Part shown: piece by piece, positions 10,125 through 63,833 of the stretch
How the letters are laid out: every line of letters begins with the position of its first letter
Numbering within the stretch: position 1 is the first letter of the stretch
Origin: Siphonodentalium dalli
Taxonomy: Eukaryota > Mollusca > Scaphopoda > Gadilida > Siphonodentaliidae
Direction: 5' to 3'
Assembly: GCA_032622095.1 (NCBI GenBank)
Contig: CP136066.1
Location: 230,582,961 to 230,646,960, forward strand
DNA length: 64,000 nucleotides
The notes under the pieces: model-generated
Seen by the model: only the letters and a program-made list of their open reading frames with translations
What the model was told of the DNA's origin: nothing
Databases searched by the model: none
Position numbers and translations under genes: made by a program

Positions 10125-10184
10125 CTATCTGATCTGCGGTTGATCCTTGCATTCTCATCCTGGCAATAACAGCTGCTACCGTCT
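10125..10184 (-). CDS. Micro-exon 20 (60 bp, phase 1-1)
   Basis: The acceptor CTTGTCTTTTTAG is pyrimidine-rich and the donor is ATAG followed by GTGAGTTAA. The exon enters with two bases and leaves with one, encoding (x)TVAAVIARMRMQGSTADQI. Exon 19 ends in A, giving AAG at the junction. This is the most 3' exon found; because it ends mid-codon, another exon must follow. Found from splice signals alone. Function unknown. Confidence 0.65.
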
Positions 10185-10605
10185 CTAAAAAGACAAGAAA
10201 TCCATTGTGTATAAGCGATGTTTAACCAATAGGGAGCCTCACACAGATGGAAGTGTGTACTACGGAGTGTCGTCTGCTGCAGTCTATGTGGGGCTCACGA
10301 AAGGTTAAAGGTATTGGTTTTGTTTTCCTCTTATCTTGTATTGGCCGACTTTTGTTAATTATGGTGCATGCATGTTGCGGGCCACGTTCTGCTTAATGCA
10401 GCCGAAAAACCTGATTAAATAGAGTTATTACAGTGTGTAAATGATGATTTATTGTATTAGCAATATGTTGGAATAATTGGCTTCTTTTAGTGTTTGCTTT
10501 CTTTAATGAATTTAATTGTCTGCTGTGTTATCCAATAGAGGCACAATAAAGCCTCTAGTGTCCCTATGGCTGTATCAAGCTTTTTAACAGTAATCTTTTG
10601 GGTAA

Positions 10606-10940
10606 TATTTACACTCAAAGCGATGTTAAGTAGTTATTTTACGAATATTAATCCAATTGACAACACACACCGTCACTCTTATATATTAATTAAATGCAAT
10701 GACGCTAGATGGCGAAATCGTTTGAGTTAGTTTATCGACGATTGTTGCGTCCCGAATTGAGATGTAAATATTTACAATTGAGCTTAGTTCAGACGATATT
10801 TTTTTATGGAGTCGTATGGTCGATTGCTTTGAAAGTTTCGGTGATGGTTAGTAGAATGCTACATTGCCCAGGTTGGCATAGAGCCTGAGAACTAACTTAT
10901 AAGTTTATCGCACTCGAACAAGTCCATAACATATCTTTAA
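10606..10940 (+). repeat. Duplicate of the intron upstream of the HtrL exon
   Basis: Blocks such as CTTATATATTAATTAAAT, GATGGCGAAATCGTTT and ATATTTACAATTG match positions 610-860 in the same order. No HtrL coding sequence follows, so this is another remnant of a duplicated HtrL locus. A short GGGAGCCTCACACAGA hairpin lies nearby at 10221-10310. Confidence 0.65.
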
Positions 10941-10996
10941 GACAGGGGTGTGAAGTTTGAATACTGTTTAACAGCGGATATGAGTGCCACTATTTA

Positions 10997-11410
10997 GGGT
11001 ACGTTCATACGCTGGCAATTTTGCACGATATATTTTACGGGCATTTCGTCATAGAAAACCACATGGTGCCAGAATATGAACGGAAACATGCACATACCAT
11101 GCATCTTTACCAAAGCTAACGACATAAGAAGTAAAATTGACGTAGTTCCACTTGTAACGGTACTACTGTAATTTGCCATCAAATACCTATAAGATTTATT
11201 CTTGCGATATCATTGCATGCTATTTACAGGCAAATTCCGGTAGCATCGCTACATGTGGAACTACAGAGATTTTACTTCACACGTAGTTAGTTGTGGCACA
11301 GATGCTTATATGCTTGTTTCCGTTCATATTCTGGCACCATATCGTTTTCTACGACAAAATGCCTGCAAACCATACCGCGCAAACTTGCCAGTGTATGAAC
11401 GTACCCTTAA
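10997..11410. mobile_element. Inverted-repeat element (~410 bp)
   Basis: AGGGTACGTTCATACGCTGG on the left pairs with the end CCAGTGTATGAACGTACCCT. Inner blocks such as TGGTGCCAGAATATGAACGG are also inverted. Partial relatives are at about 3945 and 50340. No coding sequence. Confidence 0.65.
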
Positions 11411-11848
11411 AAGCTCATGAGGTTCAACAGCACATAATGTACACTGACGTGTAGATCATCATGGGTTGTAATGTGTGTATATCGTATAACCACTTTTCTA
11501 TCAGCTATTGTCGTTATCAGAATACAATATAAATTAATCTATAACTATTCACATTAATTAATTAAGTTATATAGATTCATTGATTTGCACAGCACCTTGC
11601 ATTTAAGCAACAATATAATTGTTATGCATATCTCCATCCATTCTATTATTTCAATTACGCTGATTGAGGCAATACAATACGTTTGGAAAATTTGAAAGCT
11701 CGGTGAACCATGCCAGTTTAATTCATGTTAACTGAGAATAATATCGACTGGATTTTCATAATCACGTTGATTTAAATGCACCTATATATTAGTATATCAT
11801 GACAAGTGGTCGGAAGTGTTTAGTCGGGCCGCACATAGTAATACTCAC

Positions 11849-11872
11849 TTGCACGAAAGGGATCCACCATCA
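11849..11872 (-). CDS. Micro-exon 19 (24 bp, phase 1-1)
   Basis: The acceptor CTCTCTCTATTTCAG is excellent and the donor GCAA followed by GTGAGTATT is near consensus. It encodes (x)MVDPFRA with phase 1 at both ends. Found from splice signals alone. Confidence 0.65.
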
Positions 11873-11943
11873 CTGAAATAGAGAGAGCAATGTTTAAAAT
11901 GTATTCAGGGTTCCATACCAATAATAACCATACCACTATCACA

Positions 11944-13101
11944 TTAAAGGCACACTTAATTTTCGAGCCCCAACTCTCCGGATAAAATTATATAAAATAT
12001 ATACAATATTATATATCAATTGAAATATGTAGCTCCAAAACATTGTATTATAAACTTATCCGGTGTACCACATTGTGAACATGTTGTTTTTGTTGAGGTA
12101 CCGACGTGTTATCTGTGCTCATGTTTCATCCAAACTGTACTGCAAAGTTTATTATTATCAATGGAAGAGGACTAACTCTATATCTTAGTTTGAATTATGT
12201 TGTATTCTGGGAGTGAGACAGGTGAAATCATTTCACTGAAATGTTTCTATGATTTAAGTTATTTTCTTTTACTCTGTGGGCACATTCTGAGACACAGATG
12301 TTCCAAATGGTGAGACGGACTTACAGTATATGAATCAAATTTGATGTCATATATTTTTAGTAAAACCGAATTTCAAGGCACTATATACTTGTTATTCTTA
12401 GATATATCTCTATAACGCTGTAACTTACTAGTAATAGGAAATCATGAATATAAATATATATAAGTATATATATATATTGAATACTATGTATTGAGCCTGT
12501 GTTAGTGAAATTATCAATGAGATTGTACACCATTAGAGGCCGATTATTAATTTTCGTCCGTTTTTAACCGTTTACCCAACAGAAGGGCCCTGTGCCAATG
12601 CATTCTCTTATATATGCGAGTCGACCATAGGTCGCCTCGCATATATACGGGAATGCATTGGCTTAACACATTAAAAATTATAAAATTGTTAAAGAATGTA
12701 AGGCCAATGCATTCTCTTATATATACGAGGCGACCTATGGTCGACTCGCATATATACGAGAATGCATTGGCACAGGGCATAACTGTAACTATCACAATGT
12801 GGTCAAGGAGCCGGTTCCAATGATATCCATATCTGTATGGTTCTATTGAGACAGACCGAAGATATTTTAGGCTATTGAAGCTTTATTTTGCCGGTTTGTT
12901 GGGTAAAGGGTTAAGGCTGATTTCATCAATCAGGGATGCAAATACCTTCAAAAAAAGCCGGACAGATGCTTAAGCTTAAATATTTGCACTTAATCGCAAA
13001 TGACAGAATATCGCAAATATTTGCATTAAGCGCAAATAAAGAATACATGTGAAAATGGCCTCCCATAGGTTTGATGTCTTGAAAATTAAATGAGCCTTTA
13101 A
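11944..13101. mobile_element. Family D TTAA element interrupted by family A
   Basis: Left TTAAAGGCACACTTAATTTT and right GAAAATTAAATGAGCCTTTAA define the ends, with TTAA on both sides. An A element at 12564-12914 is nested inside, so D was there first. Without A the element is about 800 bp, longer than other D copies. Confidence 0.6.
12564..12914 (+). mobile_element. Family A MITE nested in family D
   Basis: TTAA at 12564-12567 and 12911-12914; palindromes at 12595-12661 and 12704-12770 with a shortened spacer. The arms carry small changes (TATATACG for TATATAAG). Confidence 0.85.
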
Positions 13102-13599
13102 CAATGATTCATTGGAGGGAAATGTTCAGATAATAAATTCAGCAAACGTTGAACACTTCCTAAGGGAACTACTCGTCAATGAATATATATTATAGTAAGG
13201 GTTAACGTATATTATGTAATATAGTTATGGGCATTGTCCGAATGAAATCGCTATTCAAAACAACAGTTGACATATAATCTAGACTTATACATCCCAAACA
13301 TTTGCATTGTGTGTGTTAAACTATGTATAAGGCACATAAATTAGACATGGAGTAGTATGTAAACCTTTATTTACTAAATACGCATATGTAAGTAATTCTA
13401 TATTATAACAGTGTTCACGCTGTCGTGAGCAAATTTCGTAAATTGTGAAAGAAAAACAAAAGTGGCTCCACAAAATGTTTTAGTGGCTAAAGAAAGTGGC
13501 TCAAATAATTTGAGTGGGTGGCTCTTAAATTAACTGCAGTCGGACAGATTAAGTTTAGCAATTATGCATCTTTCACTAACTCGCGGTGAATCCGCCATT

Positions 13600-14650
13600 T
13601 TGGTCTCCGGAGGTCAAAGTTAAGAAGTAGCATCTATTTTTAGCATATGGCTCCAGTCTGGGAATTCCCAAAATAAAATGGCAACAGTTCGTTACCGAAT
13701 CGCAGGTGCGACAATTTCATAAAACTAATTAAACAATCACCCTGAATACATACGATACGTAGATTTCGCGCAGTATAGATGGATTGAGTGTATCACATAT
13801 ATGTTTTTGCGTTATTTTTTTTATCGCAGATACTCGCTATTTATCAAAACATTATGAGAAGTTCGTTGACAAAAGGGGGCGTCCATCGCTTAAACGTCTG
13901 AATGTCCGCATCGTCACCAGATCCTAACTCTGTAGATGACATGGCCACACAACAATTCTTAAACCCGTAGTTGCACTCAGAATAACTGAAATTATGCCAT
14001 CAAATGCTGATAAAAAATGCTCGCACTGTCGAATGTTTACAAATGGATGCTAGCTACTTCTTAACTTTGACCTTTTACCGGTGGGTTGGAAAAAATTCTA
14101 GGAATCGGACCATATGGAACCATCGGCCATCTTGAAAATCGCGAACCAGTGACAAGGCTTATTGATTGTCAGATTATGCCACAGCGGCTGATTGTAATGG
14201 TTAGAAGGAACTAAATGTTTTCCATAGGCCACAGTGTTAACGTTTGACCACGCCCACGCTAAATTTTCGAGTTCCGAAGTGCACGATGCATGCGTTCGTA
14301 AAGACCAACCCTTTCGGCATCTGTTCGCACATAGGAGTACCTTTCGAGCCACGCCTTTTTCGAAAACCAGCATATGTTTTCCACACTACCCCACTTTTTG
14401 CACAGAATTTGATAGTCTGACAAAAACCAATACACAGCCTCAATATCCCGCCATTGTTTGGACACGAACGCATTTCAGACTAGGAAACGCCCACGTTTTT
14501 ACATGCTATGGGTATTATATTTCTTGAATTTGTAAAATTATTTGACATATTATACGCCAATCGCGCGCCAGAATTTTTTAAACTCGTATTCGAGATACCC
14601 TGTAAAAACGAAAGGGACGTAATTATACTTATTTAGTTCCTTCTAACCTT
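13600..14650. repeat. Two adjacent inverted-repeat elements
   Basis: At about 13612-14075, GGTCAAAGTTAAGAAGTAGC pairs with GCTACTTCTTAACTTTGACC. At about 14203-14650, GGTTAGAAGGAACTAAA pairs with TTTAGTTCCTTCTAACC. Overlapping ORFs at 14.1-14.5 kb on both strands look like chance open frames. Confidence 0.5.
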
Positions 14651-15060
14651 AATTGTATCACGTACAGTGAATTGGATTCCTACTTCTACTCGAAACAAAA
14701 CACACATTCATTGTATTGCTTTCACATCGCCAAACAGATGTGAAACAAAGAAAGGACACATATCCTATATAGACTGTGCATAACCACTATATTGTGTACT
14801 CGTGTCGTTTGAGTAATAATCTATCAGTTGTATTCACTCAAAGAAGTCCGGGGACTTCAAGTTCACCCGGCAGGTATTGTTTCGGTTCAAGGTGTAATAA
14901 TCGGGTTCATCATAGAGATGCCGACTATAGTTTATATCTTAGTTTGTTGGAGAATTCCCAGTCATCCGACATAATTGTAGCCGACGCGACAATATAACCG
15001 GAATAACCCAGAAGTCCACAGTATGTCTTTAAGGCTATTTTGATGCATATGGCTACTTAC

Positions 15061-15090
15061 TATAGATTGATGTATTATCATCATATGTTT
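15061..15090 (-). CDS. Candidate micro-exon 18 (30 bp, phase 1-1)
   Basis: The donor CTATA followed by GTAAGTAGCC is strong; the acceptor CCATTTAGAATAG is weaker. It encodes (x)TYDDNTSIY, open, phase 1 at both ends. The acceptor was picked with knowledge of the phase rule. Confidence 0.45.
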
Positions 15091-15194
15091 CTATTCTAAA
15101 TGGATTGGAATGGTCTACTAATAATTTGGAGGGTTGTAATACAAGCAGACGACAGACACCACCACATATAAACAAGAGCAGAATGAGGTGAGAA

Positions 15195-15705
15195 ATATAC
15201 ATGGTTCGCGCTGCCACTTGCCAATTTTCCTCAAAAATAATTCACATTTGGCAAATAATATTTAATTTGGCAAAAGTTTTGGCAAGTCACTTTTTAATTC
15301 CTCAAGAAAGTTGAAAAATATTGGTCAATCAATACCATTCATTTCAGAAAACTTTCACAATATATTTATATTACTGGTGATTTATAAGTTCTAGGAAAAT
15401 TAGTACCTTTATTAAGATGCAGTTAACCTAATAGCATTTGTATTGATGGGTGAGGGATTACCCGTATTTAGTGTGGTGATGGTGTCTTATCTAATCCTCT
15501 GGTAATGTGCCTTTCTGATGAAGCAGCCATTCTACAATTCTATTGTTCGGTAATTGGTTTACTGTTGTATGATAAACCATGAGAAAAGACTCATTGTTGG
15601 ACAAAATTATACTATCAGGGATATTTGGCAAATTCTAAAAGAATTTGGTAAAAAATATTTTCATTTGACAAAAGTTAATTTTGGTTCAGCGCGGACCCTG
15701 AAAAT
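15195..15705. mobile_element. Inverted-repeat element (~510 bp)
   Basis: GGTTCGCGCTG near the left end and CAGCGCGGACC near the right end are inverted. The interior is AT-rich with repeated TTTGGCAAA-type words in both orientations. No ORF. Confidence 0.4.
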
Positions 15706-15759
15706 ATACAGATGACAATGAGTTTTCGTTTGTTGAACTTATTGTTTGAACTTATCACA

Positions 15760-16210
15760 TGGGAACTACTTACTACTCGTCAATGAGTATTTAGTCTAGA
15801 AAGGGTTAATCTGGTTATATTATAATGTTGAACTTATTAGTATTAGTTAATAAGGTAACTACTCGTCAATTATTATTTAGTATAGAACGGGTTTATAAGA
15901 TAACTTCTCGTCAATGGGTGTTAGATAATAAGGTAACTATTCGTCAGTGGTTATTTAGTATATAAAGGGTTAATAAGGTAACTATTTGGCAATTAATATT
16001 TAGTATAGAAAGGTTTAACCAGGTTATATTATAATGTTGAACTTATTATCTGAATATCTCCTTTGGAAACTGCAAAGCAATAAGTACTAGTTAATAATGT
16101 AACTACTCGTGAGTGATTTAGTATATAGAGGGTTAGTACTGTAACTACTCGTCAATAAGTATTAAGCATAGAAAGTTGTTAGTAAATTAACTACTCGTCA
16201 ACGAATAACA
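15760..16210. repeat. Degenerate tandem repeat around TAACTACTCGTCAAT
   Basis: About eight imperfect units containing TAACTACTCGTCAATGAGT and TTTAGTATAGAAAGGGTTAA with irregular spacing. An isolated match lies near 13165-13205. No coding sequence. Confidence 0.55.
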
Positions 16211-16496
16211 AGTAACAAGTATTATTCCACACCCATTGACATGAGGCACACGTATTCAACGGAATCCCAGCCATTGAATACATATTAGTGTATACCTCTA
16301 GTGGAATACAAGCCCGAACTATTCTTGTTGACGTTGTCGCCAAGAAAGATGACGTACATTACGTCGATCATTCGCTTCCGGTGATCACCCCATAGTTACT
16401 GGTTATTTATCAGACTTAAATCACAAAGGTAGCAATAGTAACACTTGATGTGACATTGATGGATTGAACTTATCTGACTGAACGGTGTAGAGTAAA

Positions 16497-16625
16497 TACA
16501 GAACACAACTTGCATCATAATCTCGAATCTTTTATCGAACTCGTTGCGGACGGCGCAAATATATCCTTGCGCCATCCGCAACTCATTCGATAAAAGATTC
16601 TCGATTAAGATGCGCGTTGTGTTCT
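16497..16625. repeat. ~130-bp palindrome
   Basis: CAGAACACAACTTGCATC and GATGCGCGTTGTGTTCTG form the outer stem; inner GAATCTTTTATCGA and CGATAAAAGATTC also pair, around a GCGCAAATATATCCTTGCGC loop region. Confidence 0.6.
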
Positions 16626-16793
16626 GTCTATTTCCACTTAGATGTCTGACGCAGATTACAAATCCGAGTTTTATTTTGGCGAATTCCACGAACATGCATA
16701 ATGGAGTGTGTGAAAGTATGCCTGCTTCATTTAAAAAAAACATGCTTAGTGCTTTCTATTGCGAACGGGACCTAAATGAAGCGCTATACTTAC

Positions 16794-16817
16794 TCGGCAT
16801 TCCATGACGGACCAAAT
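16794..16817 (-). CDS. Micro-exon 17 (24 bp, phase 1-1)
   Basis: The acceptor TTTTTTTTCTTCCACAG and donor GCCGA followed by GTAAGTATA are both near ideal. It encodes (x)LVRHGMP with phase 1 at both ends. Found from splice signals alone; one of the best-supported exons despite its size. Confidence 0.68.
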
Positions 16818-16889
16818 CTGTGGAAGAAAAAAAAACGGCGGAATTAAGTCAACTATTCATGTAAATAACAGAGCATTCCGTTACATATA

Positions 16890-17303
16890 ACATAGACGGC
16901 CAAAAACGCCCAAATAAAGCTTCAACAGCCTAAAATATCTTCGGTCTGTCTCAATAAAACCATACAAATATGGATATCATTGGAACCGGTTCATTGACCA
17001 CATTGTGATGGTTACAGTTATGCCCTGTGCCAATGCATTCTCTTATATATGCGAGTCGACCATAGGTCCACTCGCATATATAAGAGAATGCATTGGCCTA
17101 AAAACATTCTTTAACAATTTTATAATTTTTCTTACATTTTTTAACAATTTTTATAACATTTTTCTACATTCTTTGACAATTTTATCATTTTTAATATGTG
17201 TTAAGCCAATGCACTCTCTTATATATGCGAGGCGACCTATGGTCGACTCGCATACATAAGAGAATGCATTGGCACATGGTCGTTCTGTTGGTTAAAGGGT
17301 TAA
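16890..17303 (-). mobile_element. Family A MITE, one end degenerate
   Basis: The right end GTTAAAGGGTTAA is clear; the left end has lost its TTAACCCTTTACCC and begins near GACGGCCAAAAACG. Palindromes at 17030-17096 and 17206-17272. The sequence 17304-18422 holds no recognised gene. Confidence 0.75.
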
Positions 17304-21556: not shown

Positions 21557-21856
21557 AGCTATACGTATACCTGGTGGCATGATGAACGGTTTAGAGATAT
21601 ACGTATACCTGGTGGCATGATGAACGGTTTAAAGATATACGTATACCTGGTGGCATGATGAACGGTTTAGAGATATACGTATACCTGGTGGCATGATGAA
21701 CGGTTTAAAGATATACGTATACCTGGTGGCATGATGAACGGTTTAAAGATATACGTATACCTGGTGGCATGATGAACGGTTTAGAGATATACGTATACCT
21801 GGTGGCATGATGAACGGTTTAGAGATATACGTATACCTGGTGGCATGATGAACGGT
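21557..21856. repeat. 38-bp minisatellite copying an exon/donor junction
   Basis: Eight near-identical 38-bp units containing GATATACGTATACCTGG and TGGCATGATGAACGGTTT. Read on the - strand each unit is the last 22 bases of micro-exon 16 plus its donor GTATACGTATATCT. The array therefore repeats a coding end and splice site. A single diverged unit is at about 21463. Confidence 0.85.
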
Positions 21857-21920
21857 TTTAATGCTGCTCCTCGCGTTGCTGTTCCAATTGATGGTGCTGC
21901 TGCTGCTATTGGGGCGGCGG
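21837..21920 (-). CDS. Micro-exon 16 (84 bp, phase 1-1), Ala/Pro-rich
   Basis: The acceptor TTCTAACAATATTGCAG leads into Ala/Pro-rich sequence (AAPIAAAAPSIGTATRGAA, then LKPFIMPP). The donor CCACCAG followed by GTATACG has the consensus exon side, but its intron side is weaker. Two bases enter and one leaves. The 3' end is multiplied by the 38-bp minisatellite, so several equivalent donors follow; use of a later donor would add 38 bases per unit and shift the frame. Confidence 0.68.
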
Positions 21921-24955: not shown

Positions 24956-24973
24956 GTTTAAATAAGTGTGTTC
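24956..24973 (-). CDS. Micro-exon 15 (18 bp, phase 1-1)
   Basis: The acceptor TATTGCATGTTATAG precedes 18 bases encoding (x)THLFK; the donor is AAAC followed by GTGAGTGTA. Nearly identical to exon 14, 0.8 kb upstream in transcription, with similar flanking sequence (CTACATGCAAGGCACATA in both introns), so the two arose by local exon duplication. Confidence 0.5.
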
Positions 24974-25769: not shown

Positions 25770-25787
25770 GTTTAAATAAGTTAGTTC
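25770..25787 (-). CDS. Micro-exon 14 (18 bp, phase 1-1)
   Basis: The acceptor ATTGCATTTCATAG precedes an exon encoding (x)TNLFK; the donor is AAAC followed by GTGAGTATA. Paralogous to exon 15. A run of 16 G (+ strand) lies just downstream in the intron. Confidence 0.5.
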
Positions 25788-26763
25788 CTATGAAATGCAA
25801 TGATAAAAGAGTCAATTCACATAACTGTGAGCAACAGCAACACTCATCGATATATTTTAAGAACAGATATATGTCAGGTAATCTTAATGAAACGTTCGAA
25901 ACGTAACAAGAGTGAGAGCTCTATCTTGTTAGAACCCTCCATCAGGGACGCAACCATTTTCACTCAGAGAGATTTCCCCAGCTGTACCAGCAATAAGCCA
26001 CTTTATTATTTCTCCATAGACAAATAACATACACAAATCTTCAGTTTAGTCTGTGTGTAATTACCAACAAAATAACAATGATGTTAGTTTTGTATATAGA
26101 CTATCAAAAACAAGATGCAGTTGAAAACTCTAAGTCAGACGCCCTGCAACCACCCAACCACGTCAAGAAGTAGTAATGAAAGCCTTAAGTTTAGAACATA
26201 TTACACAAGTTTTCCCATATACGATGGATAGACCCAACATCGTGAGACTTGTCTTAATAATGTTTTATGCTAACGTATTATAAAATACATTTGTAAACAA
26301 CATCTGACCTGAGTATCAGTCAATAGCTAGGAAACGAACACCCCCATCCACATGCAACACAGAACACTGCTTTAGAAATGGAATATAATCCAGTTTAATG
26401 ATATGGAATACATGGAACTATTGTGGAAAACAAACATTGTGGGCAGTTCATTTTGATACATTTTCTCAAAAGTGTAATGCCCAGCACAAACAATTACTGG
26501 ATATAAGGCATTCTGATTATTTCATCTGTGAATGCATTAGGTTATATGCTTTGTGGACTTATAAAGTCATATCTGAATTTTCATATTAGGAAAGCGTAAT
26601 ATTTGTAAACAATATGATAATATAAATAACTGTCAATTGTAAAATGCCGATGGAAACAGAATCCCAGTTATTAGTCACAATCCGACAAACGAGTTGGAAT
26701 CTGGCGTAATCCAACGAATGGCTCTAAAACACAGTATCACAGAGTACAATCGGGGGAATGGTA

Positions 26764-27153
26764 TTAACCCTTTACCCAACAAAACGGCCAAAAACGCCCA
26801 AATAAAGCTTCAACAGCCAAAAATATCTTCCGTCTGTCTCAATAACACCATACAAATATGGATATCATTCGAACCGGTTCATTGACCACATTGTGATGGT
26901 TACAGTTATGCCCTGTGCCAATGCATTCTCTTATATATGCGAGTCGACCATAGGTCGCCTCGCATATATAAGAGAATGCATTGGTCTAAACAAAAAAAAA
27001 TTATAATATTTTTCTACATTCTTTGACAATTTTATCATTTTTAATATGTGTTAAGCCAATGCATTATCTTATATATGCGAGGCGACCTATGGTCGACTCG
27101 CTTATATAAGAGAATGCATTGGGACAGGGCCGTTCTGTTGGGTAAAGGGTTAA
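26764..27153 (-). mobile_element. Family A MITE
   Basis: TTAA at 26764-26767 and 27150-27153; palindromes at 26918-26984 and 27056-27122 (one base of TATATA altered in each). The region 25900-26760 shows no gene. Confidence 0.87.
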
Positions 27154-27652
27154 CCAGGCTTTCGGCAAGTCTGCACTTGTTTGCTTTTACAGTATACAGC
27201 CACAATTAAAGAAAACATTAGGCTCAGTTAAATCACAACCAACGACGCAACAGGGACATACTATAAAAGCGACACATATCCTAGATAAGATGCCTGGCTA
27301 CGTGACGTTACAGTGCTCTGCAATGTTTGCCATCAAGACAGACCAGCACAATCAATCTGTTATTTTGAAAACGATGTCATGGGGAACACCAACGAGAAAT
27401 AACATGGTTTCTATTCGACTTTTTGGGTTGCCATAGATAGCTTATGAGGGCAATAAATCACTGACTGAAATAACCCGAAACTTAATGTTTGTTTAAATGA
27501 TTCATGCCACTTTATATATCCCTATTTATTTTTGTTTTGTAAAACGATTTACATACAGGGACCTACGTTACCAATCAAATCTCTAACCCAAAGCGTTTTA
27601 TTTTTTATTTTTTGAAACATATACACGTTTGTCTGATGGAATAAACTAGCAT

Positions 27653-28580: not shown

Positions 28581-28598
28581 GTTTGGGCTGATATGTTG
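28581..28598 (-). CDS. Micro-exon 13 (18 bp, phase 1-1)
   Basis: The acceptor TTCGTGTATTTATAG precedes an exon encoding (x)TYQPK; the donor is AAAC followed by GTGAGTATA. Same length, phase, start Thr and end Lys as exons 14 and 15, suggesting a three-member duplicated exon set. A second AG inside the exon would leave only 7 bases. Confidence 0.48.
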
Positions 28599-30432: not shown

Positions 30433-30612
30433 GTGATCCGAATGGGCTAACGGCAACTGGCGACGGACGCTGTCTGAGTGTTGGGTTCCCAAAAGGTGAT
30501 AGGAACTGCATCGGGAATTGAGCTTGTGCAGGTGCGGGAGCTGCTGCGGGAGCGGGTGCAGGTGCGGGAACGGGGGGAAGGGCCGGAGGTGGAGCAAATG
30601 CTCGCATAGCAG
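30433..30612 (-). CDS. Micro-exon gene exon 12 (180 bp, phase 1-1), Pro/Ala-rich
   Basis: The acceptor ATCTCCATTACAG and donor GGATCAC followed by GTGAGTATC enclose exactly 60 codons' worth of sequence. It encodes AMRAFAPPPALPPVPAPAPA, then AQAQFPMQFLSPFGNP and SPVAVSPFGS. The Pro-Ala dipeptide run is low-complexity and the exon is far more GC-rich than its flanks. This is the longest uninterrupted exon of the gene. No catalytic motif is visible; a structural or secreted role is only a guess. Confidence 0.75.
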
Positions 30613-33072: not shown

Positions 33073-33102
33073 CGTTGACTCTGTATGCTTGTTGTGCCAC
33101 AT
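33073..33102 (-). CDS. Micro-exon 11 (30 bp, phase 1-1)
   Basis: The acceptor TTGAAATTTGTATTTCAG is strong and the donor CAACG is followed by GTATGTATA. It encodes (x)VAQQAYRVN with phase 1 at both ends. Found from splice signals alone. Confidence 0.65.
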
Positions 33103-41725: not shown

Positions 41726-41749
41726 CTGTTAGAAGGATCGCACTACTCA
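41726..41749 (-). CDS. Candidate micro-exon 8 (24 bp, phase 1-1)
   Basis: The acceptor ATATATTATCCACAG and donor CTAACAG followed by GTGCGTAG give an exon encoding (x)SSAILLT. A competing GTGAGT overlaps the acceptor AG and cannot serve as the donor for a real exon. Confidence 0.45.
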
Positions 41750-44338: not shown

Positions 44339-44478
44339 TGAATAGAGATTCATGGCGTAATCTAGTAGCAAGGTAGCTCAGGTATTTATCGACCTATTTT
44401 GATACCGGGGAAAAAATCGAAGCGAATATTATTAGGTGAATTTTGGAGCTCAAACCGCCATGGAAGTTGAAGGCCCAC

Positions 44479-44874
44479 TTAACCCTTCACCCAACAAACC
44501 GGCCAAAACCGGCCAAATAAAGCTTCAACAGCCTAAAATATCTTCGGTCTGTCTCAATAGAGCCATACAAATATGGATATCATTGGAACCGGTTCATTGA
44601 CCGCATGGTTACAGTTATGCCCTGTGCCAATGCATTCTCTTATATATGCGAGTCGACCATAGGTCGCCTCGCATATATAAGAGAATGCATTGGCCTAAAA
44701 AAAATCCTTTTTTTTAACACTTTTTACCATTTTTTCTTACATTCTTTAACAATTTGATAATTTGTAATGTGTTAAGCCAATGCATTCTCTTATATATGCG
44801 AGGCGACCTATGGTCGACTCGCATATATAAGAGAATGCATTGGCACAGGGTCCTTCTGTTGGGTAAAGGCGTTA
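44479..44874 (-). mobile_element. Family A MITE inserted in a family D end
   Basis: The left flank AAGGCCCAC followed by TTAA is the start of a D terminus whose own TTAA served as target. Palindromes at 44627-44693 and 44777-44843. The right end is altered (AAAGGCGTTAG) and the rest of D is not found beyond it. Confidence 0.8.
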
Positions 44875-48132: not shown

Positions 48133-48234
48133 CTGGGCCATCAGCTAACCGACCTGGTATACCATCATGCATTTGTGGTCTGAATCCTGGAAACCCGCCA
48201 CCTAACCCGCCACCTAACCCTAACGCTAATGCGG
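48133..48234 (-). CDS. Micro-exon gene exon 3 (102 bp, phase 1-1), Gly-rich
   Basis: The acceptor CGTGTTTTATTTTCAG and donor GGCCCAG followed by GTAAGATAC are both near consensus. The product is Gly/Leu-rich: ALALGLGGGLGGGFPGFRPQ then MHDGIPGRLADGP. Phase 1 at both ends. The Gly-rich repeat (GGGLGGG) matches the low-complexity style of exons 12 and 16. Found from splice signals alone. Confidence 0.75.
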
Positions 48235-51086: not shown

Positions 51087-51327
51087 AAATCCAACTCAAC
51101 AGAATATATGCAACAAATGAATGAATTTGAGCCATATATTAGTGCAAAATACACTTGTGAGCTCTATGAACGATGCAAACAACATGGTAATAATAATGAA
51201 AATGAATTTATGACTCCAGCCATTTATTCATTTTCATTATAATGACCATGTTGTTTGCACATGAAAGTATTTTGCACTCACCCATGGCTCAAATTCATTC
51301 ATTTGCTGCATATAATCTGTTGAGTAT
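51087..51327. repeat. ~240-bp foldback
   Basis: CTCAACAGAATATATGCA pairs with TGCATATAATCTGTTGAG, and AACAACATGG / CCATGTTGTT inside. The sequence 50040-51080 has no recognised gene. Confidence 0.65.
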
Positions 51328-51645: not shown

Positions 51646-51672
51646 TTCCAGGAGTACCTCTGTTCATCATGG
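51646..51672 (-). CDS. Micro-exon 2 (27 bp, phase 1-1)
   Basis: The acceptor TTCTTCATTTCAG and donor CTGGAA followed by GTGAGTACA are strong. It encodes (x)MMNRGTPG. Phase 1 at both ends; found from splice signals alone. If the intron were retained, the frame would run into the 27-bp minisatellite before stopping. Confidence 0.66.
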
Positions 51673-53458: not shown

Positions 53459-53884
53459 AAATCAGTATTAACCCTTTACCCAACAGAAGGGCCCTGTGCC
53501 AATGCATTCTCTTATATATGCGAGTCGACCATAGGTCGCCTCGCATATATAAGAGAATGCATTGGCTTAACACATTAAAAATTATAAAATTGTTAAAGAA
53601 TGTAAGAAAAAATTGTAAAAAGTGTTAAAAAAAGATTTTTTTTAGGCCAATGCATTCTCTTATATGTGCGAGGCGACCTATGGTCGATTCGCATATATAA
53701 GATAATGCATTGGCACAGGGCATAACTGTAACTATCACAATGTGGTCAAGGAGCCGGTTCCAATGATATCTATATTTGTATGGCTCTATTGAGACAGACC
53801 GAAGATATTTTAGGCTGTTGAAGCTTTATTTGGCCGGTTTTGGCCGGTTTGTTGGGTAAAGGGTTAATTGACGGAAGTCACGAC
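53459..53884 (-). CDS. Possible extra micro-exon interrupted by a family A MITE
   Basis: Flanking pieces plus one TTAA give a 30-bp phase 1-1 stretch reading (x)RDFRQLILI after the good acceptor TATACTTGCGTTCAG. The donor ATTT followed by GTATTA is weak. The TTAA again lies in TTA-A phase. Not counted among the 20 main exons. Confidence 0.22.
53468..53867 (+). mobile_element. Family A TTAA MITE with nested P
   Basis: TTAA at 53468-53471 and 53864-53867; palindromes at about 53498-53564 and 53648-53714. Complete. Confidence 0.9.
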
Positions 53885-55337: not shown

Positions 55338-55529
55338 GAAAATTAATGCTTTCTGTGTCAATTTAGGCCAACGGTCGACATATTATACATGTACTGCGGT
55401 ACATCACCGTCAATTAGGACATGTGCTACCAAATTTTAATTATTTTTTATAATTGCTATTTGTTAAAAAAAGTAAGAAAAATGAAATAAATGATAACTGA
55501 TGATTGGAGCTTCCTGCATTTTTGTGAAA

Positions 55530-55885: not shown

Positions 55886-57046
55886 ATTGTTAGACTGTAA
55901 TAACAAATGTTTATCGTCACATTAATGACTAAAGAGAGCCACTATCATCGTCGCAACTCTGGTGTCGGTTTAGAACCCATATAAAGCCACACATAGACTG
56001 GAGCAGACGGCATGTGGAGGAATGACCTAGGTGGGATTTACCCACATAAACAAAACATGGTATTACCATGTCGTAGAATGGCCGATTAGTATATATCACA
56101 TGGTAGTACCACGGTGGTTGTACCATGGTTTTACAATGGTGCTTTTTATATGGGTATGTGCAGCTTTTGGGAACGGGGTATGTACATGTATGTGGTGTTA
56201 TACAAATCTGTTCGACCAACTTCCACCTTAAGGAGAAAGTGAATTTTAGTACAGATCTCTATTTCAAACAATCAGTTTGAAGGGAAAAATCATTATCCTT
56301 AATAACCAATGTATGATACAGTACTATAACACCACGTGTTTACCCTCACAATATGAGAGATATGTTCGAATTATGAAAAAAGTAGTTTAAAAAAATTTAA
56401 ATAACCATTTTTCATGTAAGTCGATAGAGTGTTTGACTGGAAATATTAAATAAACTCACTGCATTATCTAGACTATGCACCTAACTACGGTATGCGCATC
56501 GGCTACCATCGGATAGCATGACTGTCTGCGAGAAAATAAATAAAACATTTTTCATTGCATATTTTATTTTTTTTGGCAGCCATTTGCATGACTATTTTTT
56601 TTTTAAACCACTTTTTTTTTAAATACAAAAATATCTCATATTGTGAGGGTAATGAGTTGTTGTTATAGTAATATATCATACATTGATTATAAGGGATCAT
56701 GATTGTTTCCTTCAAAGTGATGTTCAGTGTTTCTCATGTTAAGAACAAAAGACCTAGTTTTGAAAACAATCAAACTTTAAACAGACATGGCTCATTCGAG
56801 CTTCCAAATTTTGTCTACGTAATTTGGGAGGAGTTATATTATAGGTAAAACAATTTACGAACTATGTTCATATGTTATGCTGACAAACTATCATCGTCAT
56901 TATAGGTCATAGCCACCTCCCAGCTGTTTTAACTGTTGGCCCAGAAGTGAGACAAACGCTCTTTATGTCTTTATATCAGGATTAGACTAACATGGAACGC
57001 CCTTGTAATGAACACAGGAAATAATTTTATTTTATTATATTTTCCG

Positions 57047-58080
57047 ACCTCTGGGTACCCACCACCCGCTCTGGGTACCCAACACCCGCTCTGTGTACCC
57101 ACCACCCGCTCTGGAAACCCACCACCCGCTCTGGGTATCCACCACCCGACCTCTGGGTATCCACCACCCGCTCTGGGTACCCACCACCCGCTCTGGGTAC
57201 CCACCACCCGCTCTGGGTACCCACCACCCGCTATGGGTACCCACCACCCGACCTCTGGGTATCCACCACCCGACCTCTGGGTATCCACCACCCGCTCTGG
57301 GTACCCACCACCCGACCTCTGGGTATCCACCACCCGCTCTGTGTACCCACCACCCGCTCTGGGTACCCACCACCCGCTATGGGTACCCACCACCCGCTAT
57401 GGGTACCCACCACCCGATATGGGTACCCACCACCCGCTCTGGGTACCCACCACCCGCTCTGGGTACCCACCACCCGCTATGGGTACCCACCACCCGATCT
57501 GGGTACCCACCACCCGACCTCTGGGTACCCACCACCCGCTCTGGGTACCCACCACCCGCTCTGGGTATCCACCACCCGACCTCTGGGTAGCCACCACCCG
57601 ACCTCTGGGTACCCACCACCCGACCTCTGGGTAGCCACCACCCGACCTCTGGGTACCCACCACCCGCTCTGGGTATCCACCACCCGCTCTGGGTATCCAC
57701 CACCCGACCTCTGGGTAGCCACCACCCGACCTCTGGGTACCCACCACCCGACCTCTGGGTAGCCACCACCCGACCTCTGGGTACCCACCACCCGCTCTGG
57801 GTATCCACCACCCGCTCTGGGTACCCACCACCCGCTATGGGTACCCACCACCCGATCTGGGTACCCACCACCCGACCTCTGGGTACCCACCACCCGCTCT
57901 GTGTACCCACCACCCGCTCTGGGTACCCACCACCCGACCTCTGGGTACCCACCACCCGCTCTGGGTACCCACCACCCGCTCTGGGTACCCACCACCCGCT
58001 CTGGGTACCCACCACCCGCTCTGTGTACCCACCACCCGCTCTGGGTACCCACCACCCGCTCTGGGTACCCACCACCCGCT
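57047..58080. repeat. 20/22-bp minisatellite, ~50 units
   Basis: Units of CTGGGTACCCACCACCCGCT (20 bp) mix with a 22-bp variant carrying CCCGACCT; further variants have GTATCC or CTATGG. The consensus 20-bp unit has no stop in any of six frames; three units make 60 bp and encode one 20-residue peptide repeat (WVPRAGGGYPERVVGTQSGW on the - strand). Open frames up to 232 codons result from this and need not be genes. A - strand acceptor-like TCCTTATTTCAG lies 15-25 bases before the array. Confidence 0.93.
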
Positions 58081-58269
58081 AATGTTTTTCTTCCGATTCT
58101 GAAATAAGGACTCACCCATTCAAAATGCTTCAAATGTTTTACTCAGTTTTCCTGACATCATCCGACTTTTATTCCATATCATGACTATATAAGCATTCCT
58201 ACTTGTTATTTACCAACAAGGATGTAAAGTTTTAGAACAATTCTCCAATTAATATGCGCTGCGGGGTGT

Positions 58270-58560
58270 GCTGATGAATTCACATTTGAAATCCAAGATG
58301 GCTGCTGGCAGCCATGTTTTTTAAAACGAATTTCGGGAAAAAATGGGAGGCCGCATCTAGAGGTCACCCCAAGATACATATGAAGTTCGGTGACGATTGG
58401 ATGAAAAATGTGACCTTTAAGTTGTGCTAAATGATTTAGCCATACAAAGATTAAAATCAAAGATGGCCGCTGGCAGCCATGTTTTTTTAACATAGTCCGG
58501 GATAAATGGTAACAATCCATCTAGAGGTCAACCCGATGATCCATATGAAGTTTGATGATG
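58270..58560. repeat. Dispersed repeat of the AAGATGGC(C/T)GCTGG family
   Basis: Two tandem units with CAAGATGGCTGCTGGCAGCC and TCATCTAGAGGTCA-like blocks, related to 28870-29290 and 41000-41165. Confidence 0.55.
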
Positions 58561-58725
58561 ATATGATGAGGGATATGCTATGTAGTGTGCACTAAATGTT
58601 GTTATTGTTTTTTTAATAGTCCATTTATATTTTAAGAGTTTCTATTTATTTGAAGAATCTATTATTATGTTATGTTGTCATTTATATCATACGGAAGCAC
58701 TGTAGCGCCACAAATAAAATAATAA

Positions 58726-59157
58726 TTACGGCGTTTAAACGCCCTACTACGGCATTTAAACGCCCTAATATTGCGTTTAAACGCCCTAATTACGGCGTTT
58801 AAACGCCCTAATACGGCGTTTAAACGCCCTAATTACGGCGTTTAAACGCCCTAATTACGGCGTTTAAACGCCCTAATTACGGCGTTTAAACGCCCTATTA
58901 CGGCGTTTAAACGCCCTAATTACGGCGTTTAAACTCCCTAATTACGGCGTTTAAACGCCCTAATACGGCGTTTAAGCGCCCTAATTACGGCGTTTAAACG
59001 CCCTAATTACGGCGTTTAAACGCCCTATTACGGCGTTTAAACGCCCTAATACGGCGTTTAAACGCCCTAATTACGGCGTTTAAACGCCCTAATACGGCGT
59101 TTAAACGCCCTAATACGGCGTTTAAACGCCCTAATTACGGCGTTTAAACGCCCTAAT
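58726..59157. repeat. 22-bp satellite array, left arm
   Basis: About 20 units of TTACGGCGTTTAAACGCCCT, each holding the 14-bp palindrome GGCGTTTAAACGCC. Spacing alternates between AATTA and ATA linkers. Confidence 0.95.
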
Positions 59158-59942
59158 GCGACATATATGGAATGACTAGTGAACCTTCGGACTACTGAAC
59201 CCTACCCGATCAATGTCTGAACAGAATGAGGTCCCCTAGCAAAGGGTGAATTTGGTGATGCTAGCCGCTATGCGGGGTAATATCTCTAAATTCACCCTCT
59301 GGGGACCTCATTCTGCAAATGTCAGGCACCTTATTTCCGGGCTTGATACCACCACTGGTATATGCGTTGGTTTGGGTGCAATGTGTCTAACCGTGAAACA
59401 TGTGGTCCCCTGCTATAAGCATATACCCTTCGCTATGCGCATGTTCGACTACATGGGGGTGTTTTGAGTGCATTCTAGTTCATTTTGTATTTTCGGAGAA
59501 TCGGGCCTTCGGAGAATCGGGCCCTCGGAGTTATGGGCTTACGGAGAATCGGGCTTTCGGAGAATCGGGCCTTCGGAATTATGGGGTTTCGGAGAATCGG
59601 GCCTTCGGAGTTATGGGCTTTCCAGGGCTGGCATTCTCAGAAATCCGGGCGGGCTCAGACCAACCCTCCTCAATCAGCCTAGGTGGGCTATAGCCCTCCT
59701 CAGTGAATGATGTCATAGCATGGACATTTTAGCCAACTACAGCGAAATCACATTTACGACAATGGAAATAGTCATTATCTGAACTAAACTGCGTTAATAC
59801 ATTTTACAAAGGGAGCCATTCCAAAATGTACCTCACCCCATAGACTTTACCTACCCGAATAAAGGCCATCGGTTATAGGGTGATAGAGTCAGAAACATTA
59901 ATCGTGAGTCACTACTCATATAATGCAGTGCTCTTGTTATTA

Positions 59943-60660
59943 TCCCCCGCCAAATTGAAAATTTGCGGGTGATATAGGAATGGGTTCCGTCTGTCCGTCC
60001 GTTCGTCCGTCCGTCTGTCCTGAATTTGATCGAGTTAGAACTTGAACATATGTCTACGGATATCAAAGATATTTGGTATATGAGTTCACCTGACCGTTAC
60101 CTAGAATGCGTTCTCAAGCCAGGTCCGGCAGGATATTTTTACCAGAGTTATTGGACTTTGTTTATTATTTTTGTTGAATTTACCAAATAGCATATATAGA
60201 CGACGTCACAGGGCTCATTTCCACAAATCTCTATGGATTTCAAAGATATTTGGTATATGAGTTCACCTGACCATTACCTAGAACGAGTTTGCATGCCAGG
60301 TCCGGCCGGTTATTTTTACCGGAGTTATTGGACTTTGTTTATTATTTACCAAATAGCATATAGACAACGTCACAGGGCTCATTTCCACAAATGTCAACGG
60401 ATTTCAAAGATTTGTTTTATTTGTGTTCACATGATCAGTATCTAGAACGAGTTCGAAAACCAGGTCCGGCAGGATATTTTAAGCAGAGTTATTGGACATT
60501 GTTTATTTTTGTGTGTGCAAATGGACGACGTCACAGGGCTCATTTCCACAAATGTCAATGGATTTCAGAGATATTCGGTAAATGAGTTCACATGACCAGT
60601 ATCTAGAATGAGTTCGCAAACCAGGTCCGGCCGGTTATTTTAAGCAGAGTTATTGGACTT
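59943..60660. repeat. ~160-bp tandem repeat in the foldback centre
   Basis: After TATCCCCCGCCAAATTG and a GTCCGTCCGT run, about four units carry GGATTTCAAAGATATTTGG, CCAGGTCCGGC, GAGTTATTGGACTTTG and CACAGGGCTCATTTCCACAA. A stray unit is at about 60985-61060, and CGGCGGGGGATAC at about 61140 mirrors the start, suggesting a separate nested element. Confidence 0.7.
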
Positions 60661-60889
60661 TTTAAAATTTGTTACAATAATCTGCACTGGTGATTTCAAT
60701 TTCAACATCCATCAGGAGAAATATGTGTCCCAACTTGAAAACATCTTCAAAATACATCAATCTGTTGTGCAGCCGACACATATACTTGAAGGAACACTCG
60801 ACCTACTTCTCTCTAATATTAAAATGGACACACATGCTTTTCCAGTTCTGTACACAGACCACCATGTGATATGGGCTGTCAAGAAGTAA
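60660..60889 (+). pseudogene. Fragment of an APE-type endonuclease (EEP fold) domain
   Basis: About 75 codons with the C-terminal half pattern of LINE/Helentron endonucleases: CTGDFNFNI (catalytic Asp/Asn of GDFN), a Leu/Phe-rich helix, QPTHILEGTLDLLLSN, and TDHHV in the position of the usual SDH. The N-terminal half with the catalytic Glu and the reverse transcriptase or helicase are missing, and it begins inside the tandem repeat. It is therefore a captured, probably dead fragment. Assignment is from motif memory. Confidence 0.5.
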
Positions 60890-61174
60890 AATGTCATTCT
60901 AAGAATATTTATGCATGATTATGGAGATATTGAGGTATATTTTATCAAATATATATTTTATTTAATTTTGCTCAAAATTTATATCAACGGATTTAAAAGA
61001 GTTTTGGTATATTTGTTCCCATGACTAGTACCTAAAATGAGTTCGCGAGCCTGGCTTTTTGACAAAATCCCACCTCTTATTTACCACGTACTGAGAACGT
61101 AAACTTTATTGAGAATGCACTTCCCCAACTGCACATTTCGGCGGGGGATACCGCCGTCTCCGACGGCTTGTTGT

Positions 61175-61690
61175 GTTTGATGCACCAACTAATGGCTAAA
61201 ATGTAGACAGTCATTTAATCTTATTAATGGTACTCAATCCGATTAAGCACCCCTAAATTACTATTTCTTTGGCTTCAGGGGTAAAACATATTTGATTCGA
61301 GTCGAGGAACCCATCCATCAAAGCTCAGAGTGATGAGATATTGATTTTTGAAGTTTGTAATTTTCTCGAGATGTGTACTGATAATTGCCACAGAAACACT
61401 TATTCAAACGGACGAAGGTGGATAACTAAAAATAAATGGTAATACTAACGCAATTTTGACTGAGAACATCCTTTTGACGGCGTGTTCTGTGCCACAAACA
61501 ATAGATGTAAAAAAAATTGATATCTGATCACTCTGAGCGTTGATGGGTAGGTTCGTCGACTCGAATCAATTATTTTTTACCCCCGAAGTCAAAGAAATAG
61601 TAATTTAGGGGTGCTTAATCGGATTGAGAACCATTAATAAGATTAAATGACTGTCTACATTTTAGCCATTAGTTGGTGCATCAAACACAA
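61175..61690. mobile_element. Inverted-repeat element nested in the foldback centre
   Basis: GTGTTTGATGCACCAACTAA and TTAGTTGGTGCATCAAACAC are perfect ends; arms of about 160 bp with TAGACAGTCATTTAATCTTA also pair. It abuts the right foldback arm. Confidence 0.75.
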
Positions 61691-62485
61691 TAACAAGACC
61701 ACTGCATTATATGAGTAGTGACTCACGATTAATGTTTCTGGCTCTATCACCCTATAACCGATGGCCTTTATTCGGGTGGGTAAAGTCTATGGGGTGAGGT
61801 ACATTTTGGAATGGCTCCCTTTGTAAAATGTATTAACGCAGTTAAGTTCAGATAATGACTATTTCCATTGTCGTGAATGTGATTTCGCTGTAGTTGGCTA
61901 AAATGTCCATGCTATGACATCATTCACTGAGGAGGGCTATAGCCCACCTAGGCTGATTGAGGAGGGTTGGTCTTAGCCCGCCCTGATTTCTGAGATTGCC
62001 AGCCCTGGAAAGCCCATAACTCCGAAGGCCCGATTCTCCGAAACCCCATAATTCCGAAGGCCCGATTCTCCGAAAGCCCGATTCTCCGAAAGCCTTTAAC
62101 TCCGAGGGCCCGATTCTCCGAAGGCCCGATTCTCCGAAAATCCAAAATGAACTAGAATGCACTCAAAACACCCCCATGTAGTCGAACATGCGCATAGCGA
62201 AGGGTATATGCTTATAGCAGGGGACCACATGTTTCACGGTTAGACACATTGCACCCAAACCAACGCATATACCAGTGGTGGTATCAAGCCCGGAAATAAG
62301 GTGCCTGACATTTGCCGAATGAGGTCCCCAGAGGGTGAATTTAGAGATATTACCCCGCATAGCGGCTAGCATCACCAAATTCACCCTTGCTAGGGGACCT
62401 AATTCTGTTCAGACATTGATCGGGTAGGGTTCAGTAGTCCGAAGGTTCAGTCCGAAGGTTCACTAGTCATTCCATATATGTCGCA

Positions 62486-62765
62486 TTAGGGCGTTTAAAC
62501 GCCGTAATTAGGGCGTTTAAACGCCGTATTAGGGCGTTTAAACGCCGTAATAGGGCGTTTAAACGCCGTAATTAGGGCGTTTAAACGCCGTAATTAGGGC
62601 GTTTAAACGCCGTATTAGGGCGTTTAAACGCCGTAATAGGGCGTTTAAAGCCGTAATTAGGGCGTTTAAACGCCGTAATTAGGGCGTTTAAACGCCGTAA
62701 TTAGGGCGTTTAAACGCCGTATTAGGGCGTTTAAACGCCGTAATAGGGCGTTTAAACGCCGTAAT
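62486..62765. repeat. 22-bp satellite array, right arm
   Basis: About 13-14 units of AGGGCGTTTAAACGCCGTAA, the inverse of the left array; shorter by about a third. One unit has lost a base (GCGTTTAAAGCC). Confidence 0.95.
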
Positions 62766-63315
62766 TATTATTTTATTTGTGACGCTACAGTGCTTCCGTA
62801 ATATCAGGTTGAATAAATGATATTTAAGTTTTTATAAAATTATTTAATTTGATTTAGTTTAATAATGTGCATTGATAGATTATTGATGAAAATATTTAGC
62901 AAGCTGACCTTTTGTATTACCCATTGGCACCATCCCTCACTATTAACCGATGGCGACTCAAACCCCCATACCAAGAGTTCAGTGCATACCTACTACATAA
63001 TAGAAGCACCATTTAACCGTTTTATCCTATTATTGTGAAGAAAAATGATTCCAGGAAATAAATTACGGGCCTGGAAAAATTGTGCAAGCCGGGCTGATGA
63101 ACCACTCACCTACCCTTCACGCCTAGTGTTCGGAAAACATTACAGACCCCCCCCCCCCCCCCCCCCCGCCGCCGATGAACATGGCTTTTATTTGTTCGGG
63201 ACATAAACACCTTTTTGGACGTTGTAGTCATTATGACGAACATTATGGGACATAGAACGCCCGTAGAAATTATTTCAAGTATTAATCGAGCTATTTCGAT
63301 GCCGGGAAATTGGCT

Positions 63316-63672
63316 TTAACTGACCATTTGATTCACCGATTATATGTTATAGTGTCTTGATATACGGTTTTAATAACAATATATGCCATACAATATGATT
63401 AAAATACTATAAGTCATCAAAGTGCCATAGAAAAATAGAAAATAGCTGAAATCATAGAACACATTCCCCCGTTTCGCTCCCAGAATGCAGAGGAATTCAT
63501 ACTTAGATATATAAACTTTGCCGGCACCTCAACTAAACAAATTTTTCACAGTTTATTACACCGGATAATTTGATAATTCAATGTGTTGGACCTTCCTCCT
63601 TCCAATGATATATCATATGGCATACATTTTATATAATGTGATCCGAGGGTTCGAAAATGAAGAGGGTCTTTC
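63316..63672. mobile_element. Decayed family D element
   Basis: Keeps interior blocks (GTGTCTTGATATACGGTTTT, AATAACAATATATGCCATA) and the right end GGGTTCGAAAATGAAGAGGG; termini are mutated. A C-rich homopolymer lies at about 63147-63168. Confidence 0.55.
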
Positions 63673-63706
63673 ATATAGAACTTTAAGACAGGACGTTGAT
63701 ACTCAC

Positions 63707-63712
63707 GTATTT
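63707..63712 (-). CDS. Possible 6-bp micro-exon
   Basis: TGTACCTTAATGCAG, six bases AAATAC, then GTGAGTATC. Phase would allow (x)I. Joined straight after exon 1 it would create TAA, so it is either skipped, used with another exon, or false. Confidence 0.15.
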
Positions 63713-63806
63713 CTGCATTAAGGTACATCGTATGTGATACACACATTTCTGATCACAGTTTTCTGTGATGCGTCATTGTCACAAACAATATGTTTTGTAT
63801 ACTTAC

Positions 63807-63833
63807 AATACATCATGTATGGGTTGAAGTGAT
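63807..63833 (-). CDS. Micro-exon 1 (27 bp, phase 1-1), most 5' exon seen
   Basis: The acceptor CATCTATTTTGCAG and donor GTATT followed by GTAAGTATA enclose (x)HFNPYMMY. Phase 1 at both ends; found from splice signals alone. Earlier exons, including any start codon or signal peptide, would lie beyond the right edge of the window. Confidence 0.62.

Follow-up and report, generated by a model that had tools for sequence, protein, structure and literature searches.

Does the minus strand of contig CP136066.1 (assembly GCA_032622095.1), between positions 230,582,961 and 230,646,960, carry a gene that is assembled from very small exons all obeying one and the same phase rule? Such a gene had been proposed for this stretch of 64,000 nucleotides (nt), called the window here, which belongs to a genome of 2.23 Gb in nine contigs. 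The original prediction described about 20 tiny exons on the minus strand, all multiples of three in length and all of phase 1-1, and compared them to the micro-exon genes (MEGs) of schistosomes. Phase classes are written start-end, as in 1-1, and window numbering is used throughout; W denotes the window copy of the locus, and A and B are two further copies of it. Judging from the sequence, we consider it likely that the interior of a protein-coding gene lies here, with small 1-1 exons, three recent copies and a basic product rich in Ala, Pro, Gly and Met. All assignments of exons, micro-exons and phases are genomic predictions.

Predicted minus-strand exons and their phases

The nine exons for which lengths had been given (27, 27, 102, 30, 180, 84, 24, 24 and 60 nt) were all re-found in this order on the minus strand, from 63833 to 10125, with both limits exact. 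Each of them is flanked by AG and GT, has a length divisible by three and is open in 1-1, as had been claimed. These nine window exons and a tenth of 33 nt outside the window constitute what we call the core exons, and four further exons inside the window are regarded as tentative. Splice scores derive from approximate matrices that were not trained on this genome.

63807..63833, minus strand: core exon of 27 nt (HFNPYMMY), 1-1; 0 exon differences in copy B
51646..51672, minus strand: core exon of 27 nt (MMNRGTPG), 1-1; 0 differences from copy B over 147 nt
48133..48234, minus strand: core exon of 102 nt (ALALGLGGGLGGGFPGFRPQMHDGIPGRLADGP), 1-1; splice score 12.8; in copy B, L>A plus an in-frame difference of 12 nt
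33073..33102, minus strand: core exon of 30 nt (VAQQAYRVN), 1-1; weak splice score of 5.2; 0 exon differences in A and B
30433..30612, minus strand: core exon of 180 nt, Ala/Pro-rich, 1-1; weak acceptor, splice score 5.3, strong coding score; two nonsynonymous changes, common to A and B
21837..21920, minus strand: core exon of 84 nt (AAPIAAAAPSIGTATRGAALKPFIMPP), 1-1; splice score of just 3.1; identical in A, two nonsynonymous changes in B
16794..16817, minus strand: core exon of 24 nt (LVRHGMP), 1-1 and open also in 0-0 and 2-2; splice score 14.1, the window maximum; identical in A, one synonymous change in B
11849..11872, minus strand: core exon of 24 nt (MVDPFRA), 1-1; splice score 10.6; 0 differences from copy B over 144 nt
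10125..10184, minus strand: core exon of 60 nt (TVAAVIARMRMQGSTADQI), 1-1; splice score 10.0
67509-67477, minus strand: core exon of 33 nt outside the window (GMSRLWMDPP), 1-1; splice score 11.1; 3.6 kb upstream of the exon at 63833
41726..41749, minus strand: tentative exon of 24 nt (SSAILLT), 1-1; splice score 7.1; 0 differences from copy B over 144 nt
28581..28598, minus strand: tentative exon of 18 nt (TYQPK), 1-1; splice score merely 3.4; 0 differences from copy B over 138 nt, intact in A
25770..25787, minus strand: tentative exon of 18 nt (TNLFK), 1-1; duplicate of the exon at 24956..24973
24956..24973, minus strand: tentative exon of 18 nt (THLFK), 1-1; duplicate of the exon at 25770..25787

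Joining the ten core exons yields 591 nt, or 196 codons, without a single stop, junction codons included, while the two other frames contain 14 and 3 stops; the uninterrupted frame that had been reported for the joined exons is thereby reproduced with the tenth exon added. The predicted introns measure 1.7 to 15 kb. The total of about 20 exons is not borne out and, as things stand, too high: nine solid and four tentative ones were found within the window.

The assertion that the lengths fall on multiples of three beyond chance was borne out by counts on which no frame condition was imposed. Among splice pairs scoring at least 7 on the minus strand between 10.1 and 67.6 kb, lengths with a remainder of 0, 1 and 2 after division by three are split 18/8/6, compared to 11/16/17 in the minus-strand flanks, 13/18/21 in the plus-strand flanks and 6/8/5 on the plus strand of the same interval (Fisher P 0.0016; 0.0005 with an open frame required). 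Splice signals were further combined with a generic coding score, which is based on an approximate Swiss-Prot amino-acid composition and is independent of the peptide originally proposed. Above a combined score of 8, the 1-1 class accounts for 7 of the 15 non-overlapping candidates on the minus strand at 10-68 kb, versus 3/29 in the minus-strand flanks and 3/32 on the plus strand (7/15 against the pooled 6/61, P 0.0026). Order-3 Markov simulations (n=60) produced 0.58 candidates of class 1-1 on average and three at most; the window has six. In a blind scan of 120 kb of upstream DNA, the exon at 67509-67477 emerged as the strongest 1-1 pair. Outside 6-70.1 kb, no 1-1 pair of at least 9.0 was found on either strand (199.9 kb each), and five such pairs are located inside on the minus strand.

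According to the original prediction, the nine exons had been found from splice signals alone and were uniformly 1-1. The second part stands for the nine exons themselves; a ranking by splice signals only, however, also returns strong pairs of other phases. On the minus strand of the window it contains 22 non-overlapping open pairs of at least 7 (14 with a length divisible by three, nine open in 1-1), and on the plus strand eight pairs, with four multiples of three and three open in 1-1. As three of the nine exons score low on splice, composition probably helped in picking them.

The strong pairs of other phases comprise 39397-39305 (2-2), 14599-14495 (0-0), 41835-41726 (2-1) and 51316-51282 (1-0), and another one with strong splice signals is 7048-7017 (32 nt). 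39397-39305 and 14599-14495, the strongest open rule-breakers, fall into stretches that are missing from copy B and are unmatched anywhere in its 68 kb; 41835-41726 comes next in strength. No match in B exists for 60875-60807 and 39534-39511 either, both of which are 1-1. The length of 41304-41266 is altered in copy B by insertions or deletions (indels). The 35-nt pair 51316-51282 resides inside an inverted repeat (51094-51325) and is kept in B with one change. The strong donor at 41726 can be joined to two acceptors, resulting in either the tentative 24-nt 1-1 exon or the 110-nt 2-1 pair, and both are conserved in B. A coding-looking candidate further upstream, 91003-90865 (139 nt, 0-1), was left out; the stretch around it is duplicated, and in the other copy the acceptor is gone and indels are present. 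Candidates for a terminal exon, for instance at 8987, were indistinguishable from chance.

Three copies of the locus, their divergence and exon turnover

The locus is present three times within about 0.75 Mb of contig 6, at 229.89-229.96, 230.28-230.35 and 230.58-230.66 Mb. Copy B was examined as one 68-kb stretch and copy A in part. Allowing up to three mismatches, an 18-nt exon together with its splice-site pattern is found at six places in the genome, two in each of three loci and in identical order, the 60-nt exon at three places (all 0/65 nt) and the 33-nt exon 67509-67477 likewise at three places (all with 0 mismatches over 45 nt). The 180-nt exon (59 residues) has three genome matches at an expect value (E) of at most 10. 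Copy B contains 13 exons in unchanged order, the ten core ones and the three tentative ones of 18 nt, with AG and GT intact in 13/13. Seven of these 13 compared exons fall into the parts of copy A that were read, where all are intact with AG/GT, and matching of patterns adds two more exons and the upstream 33-nt exon of this copy. A blind scan of the upstream end of B revealed a 33-nt 1-1 exon encoding GFAGGSFMPP (splice score 9.7), which is found in A too, with one synonymous change. This exon and the one encoding GMSRLWMDPP share 17 of 33 bases, and their common descent is a guess on our part.

Comparison of W and B outside exons, in nine chosen blocks, gives 394 differences over 22748 aligned bases and 2.7 indels per kb. 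Within exons, 7 of 633 bases differ: six of the changes are nonsynonymous and located in the three long exons, one is synonymous and located in a micro-exon. The sole exon indel is the in-frame one of 12 nt in the 102-nt exon. Divergence amounts to 13/1505 within 60 nt of exons versus 172/9773 at a distance of 61-500 nt (P 0.0046). In permutations confined to 3 kb, divergence of the exons with their flanks is 0.89% compared to a null mean of 2.1%, with 0/2000 draws as low, and micro-exons of up to 60 nt show 1 difference in 279 bases, with 44/2000 draws as low; these values are inexact since the null includes repeats. Splice-like decoys differ from B at 222/7721 bases on the minus strand and 297/9932 on the plus strand (sufficiently covered places only, from 53 and 55 decoys, deletions counted), and the core with flanks at 26/1575, a figure that covers 9 of the 13 exons and in which the 12-nt in-frame indel alone contributes 12 of the 26 differences. 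At 6509-10359, W and B diverge by just 0.5-0.8%, compared to 1.2-2.6% in the seven other blocks, which may reflect gene conversion or a constrained 3′ gene end.

Two of the tentative exons, 25787-25770 and 24973-24956, are duplicates of each other; the similarity extends over ~120 nt and is best kept in the exon and its donor. A different kind of repetition affects the donor side of the 84-nt exon.

21560..21858, minus strand: 38-bp minisatellite in which the final 22 nt of the 84-nt exon are repeated along with the donor site

Its motif is counted eight times in W, six times in A (with one variant unit in addition) and once in B. Since 38 bp cannot be divided by three, splicing from a donor further along would usually put the reading out of frame.

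Repeats and neighbouring loci

Several other features were recorded in and around the window. An exon of the HtrL_YibB family is located at 862-1686 on the plus strand (Pfam E 2.8e-35) and is repeated leftward every ~7.9 kb (flanking loci L013-L014), forming a tandem array of what is an unusual gene for an animal; 2132-2269 appears to be a repeated piece of the 3′ end of this exon. The segment 58690-62800 has two repeated arms, each ~1.25 kb long, whose TTTAAACGCC arrays lie on opposite strands. Since copy B is without most of this segment, it looks like a foldback element that inserted into W after the duplication. A 20-bp minisatellite of ~50 units at 57049-58080 has several frames open on both strands. 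An interspersed palindromic repeat with AAGAGAATGCATTGG arms, found for example at 8072-8474, 26761-27157, 44476-44874 and 53461-53870, attains up to 78 overlapping self-matches per position when the window is compared to itself. Outside the window, the plus strand at 80554-81558 (locus L002, window coordinates) contains sequence copies in tandem, ~157 bp apart at first, which we take to resemble a CUB domain.

Nature of the probable gene and its product

The joined product of 196 residues is basic and of low complexity, with 34 Ala, 33 Pro, 20 Gly, 15 Met and 2 Lys and neither Cys nor Glu. It had been described as Ala/Pro/Gly/Met-rich and unrecognised, and both descriptions hold, searches for protein homologues and Pfam families having come back empty; Rfam gave no match at the gathering score. 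A pair of Pro followed by Phe or Tyr occurs five times versus 0.69 times expected, a motif that was picked out post hoc. Tropoelastin-like genes have small frame-neutral exons and encode a Gly/Ala/Pro-rich protein. From this general description, the present gene is alike in its small frame-neutral exons and its Gly/Ala/Pro-rich product and different in that the product is also Met-rich, and with 2 Lys among 196 residues elastin-type lysine cross-linking looks unlikely.

As we picture the gene, a coding sequence on the minus strand would be split into small exons with lengths divisible by three, all bounded by long introns of phase 1. Every exon would then be frame-neutral, so that exons could be duplicated, lost, lengthened or skipped without a frame shift. 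The gene would have grown partly via exon duplication, seen in the 18-nt pair and perhaps in two 33-nt exons, and the product would most likely be secreted and act as a structural or interface protein, possibly varied by exon skipping. The prediction of a gene with small, frame-neutral and uniformly 1-1 exons is well supported because of the exons found out of sample, the conservation between recent copies and the enrichment of lengths divisible by three. The exon set, its phases, the occurrence in three copies and the 18-nt duplication come out of the computation itself; transcription, secretion, exon skipping and function are what we infer for the gene.

A number of results weigh against this reading. 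The plus strand of the same interval also holds a 1-1 pair, with a score of 9.8 (56580-56642), and the other symmetric classes, 0-0 and 2-2, are likewise elevated there, albeit less than 1-1, in part because more than one frame is open in short exons (minus-strand counts inside/outside of 13/5 for 1-1, 9/6 for 0-0 and 11/5 for 2-2, at a splice score of at least 7 and up to 210 nt, in 57.5 versus 206.5 kb). Three core exons are weak on splice (33102: 5.2; 30612: 5.3; 21920: 3.1), and the 110-nt pair 41835-41726, which does not fit the rule, is conserved in B. The six nonsynonymous and one synonymous nucleotides are spread over about 482 nonsynonymous and 160 synonymous sites, a ratio by which constraint at the protein level is not shown, and for the exon divergence by itself, a reduction relative to the flanks does not reach significance (7/633, P 0.14). 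The repeats in the permutation null and the partial exon coverage of the decoy figure, both mentioned above, count on the same side. Neither at E <= 1 nor at E <= 10 did protein searches return homologues of the joined peptide, and no Pfam family matched the joined nine-exon window peptide at E <= 10. A convincing signal-peptide exon was found neither in 120 kb of DNA upstream of W nor in the first 9.3 kb of B, and the actual 5′ end may be located farther out; there was no convincing candidate for a stop exon. At the upstream end, the exon encoding GFAGGSFMPP was not found for W at up to three mismatches, and the homology between W and B stops at 70040, 2.5 kb upstream of the 33-nt exon of W.

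One alternative is that unrelated splice-like pairs and low-complexity DNA were joined by chance under a rule that was sought beforehand. Other phases do occur in the splice-only lists, and at a low threshold the minus-strand pairs number 22 for 1-1, 21 for 0-0 and 27 for 2-2. The out-of-sample exons, the enrichment over the flanks and the conservation of exons plus flanks in recent copies nevertheless make this explanation very improbable. The three alternatives that follow overlap, being partly sub-cases of the gene with 1-1 exons, and their likelihoods are to be read accordingly. The ends of the locus raise the question of whether the family is real and W itself is a decayed or 5′-truncated copy that is not expressed. 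Beyond 70040, B matches W just in scattered short pieces, and this end of homology, together with the 33-nt exon seen upstream in A and B and not found for W, suggests that W may be a partial duplicate without its 5′ end. Set against the intact and open state of the exons seen in W, an unexpressed partial copy appears possible, at roughly one chance in three.

The remaining alternatives concern the kind of gene. An ordinary extracellular structural gene would have small 1-1 exons that are spliced constitutively, without combinatorial skipping, and the 1-1 rule would then be the phase-1 intron bias of secreted proteins in a Gly-rich sequence. Dominance of class 1-1 is described as a general signature of metazoan extracellular proteins and tied to Gly codons and signal peptides (PMC8001218), which renders the phase rule less surprising on its own. 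The three core exons of 84-180 nt, out of ten, and the low complexity of the product are in line with such a gene, whereas neither a recognised domain nor a signal peptide was found and exons of 18 and 24 nt would be unusually small for this class. When compared to the class 1-1 modules described there (PMC8001218), the exons are alike in their uniform 1-1 boundaries (10/10 core exons, with the frame open through the joins), their length divisible by three and their openness to duplication and skipping. They differ in that they code for 6-60 residues, mostly of low complexity, and in that none corresponds to a folded domain recognised by Pfam. We rate this alternative at somewhat below even odds.

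A micro-exon gene proper, as known from schistosomes, would instead generate secreted variants through skipping of micro-exons. PMC7653826 defines such genes by micro-exons shorter than 70 nt and divisible by three, a minimum of seven exons with no fewer than half of them micro, and a run of four; PMC4350168 adds a signal peptide to their features. The predicted exons fit this definition in size, number and micro-exon share: seven of the ten core exons are micro-exons, and ten of 13 when the three tentative 18-nt exons are included. A run of four (33, 33, 27, 27) exists in copy B. The recent copies cluster on one chromosome, similar to a tapeworm cluster (PMC7653826). By contrast, micro-exons make up just 279 of 645 nt across the 13 exons, the window copy with its flanks reaches runs of three at most (33, 27, 27; 24, 24, 60; and 18, 18, 18 if tentative exons count), and no signal peptide was found in the upstream DNA scanned. 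The MEGs of schistosomes and tapeworms, which vary their products thanks to small symmetric exons, likewise have many tiny exons with lengths divisible by three and clustered copies (PMC4350168, PMC4015677, PMC7653826); exons of 84, 102 and 180 nt are intermixed here, and the Ala/Pro/Gly/Met-rich product is a further difference. The genes of Schistosoma mansoni are described as unusual in the share of coding sequence that micro-exons take up. The comparison to schistosome genes made originally is apt for the architecture only; the run of four was not seen in the window copy, and no signal peptide was found in the DNA scanned. We regard a micro-exon gene in this strict sense as rather unlikely. 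An extended version is less likely still: it would posit a MEG family independent of the flatworm ones, in which uniformly 1-1 exons multiply by micro-exon duplication and by a minisatellite that copies an exon end together with its donor site, and in which three young copies yield combinatorial variants of a secreted Ala/Pro/Gly/Met-rich protein.

Returning to the gene with uniformly 1-1 exons, the observation originally made largely holds and is, taken as a whole, partly confirmed, and the interpretation given to it is supported in part. The gene is probably real and the family previously undescribed; an extracellular structural or interface protein is our best guess for its product, and combinatorial skipping is possible. 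MEG families are described as apparently confined to platyhelminths (PMC4350168), and micro-exon genes are mentioned for other organisms as well (PMC4015677). A probe with one protein family (PF14830) was silent in this genome and in 14 control genomes alike and carried no information on this point. Among the matches listed from the open-licence literature, none was noticed that dealt with such a gene outside flatworms. According to PMC7653826, both gene finders and short-read aligners have difficulty with MEGs, and an undescribed family can therefore sit in a chromosome-scale genome. With three young copies, of which one carries an in-frame exon difference and one apparently is without the upstream exon, the gain, loss and change of frame-neutral exons would become observable, and if the host is not a flatworm, the locus could show whether combinatorial splicing of tiny exons arose there too.

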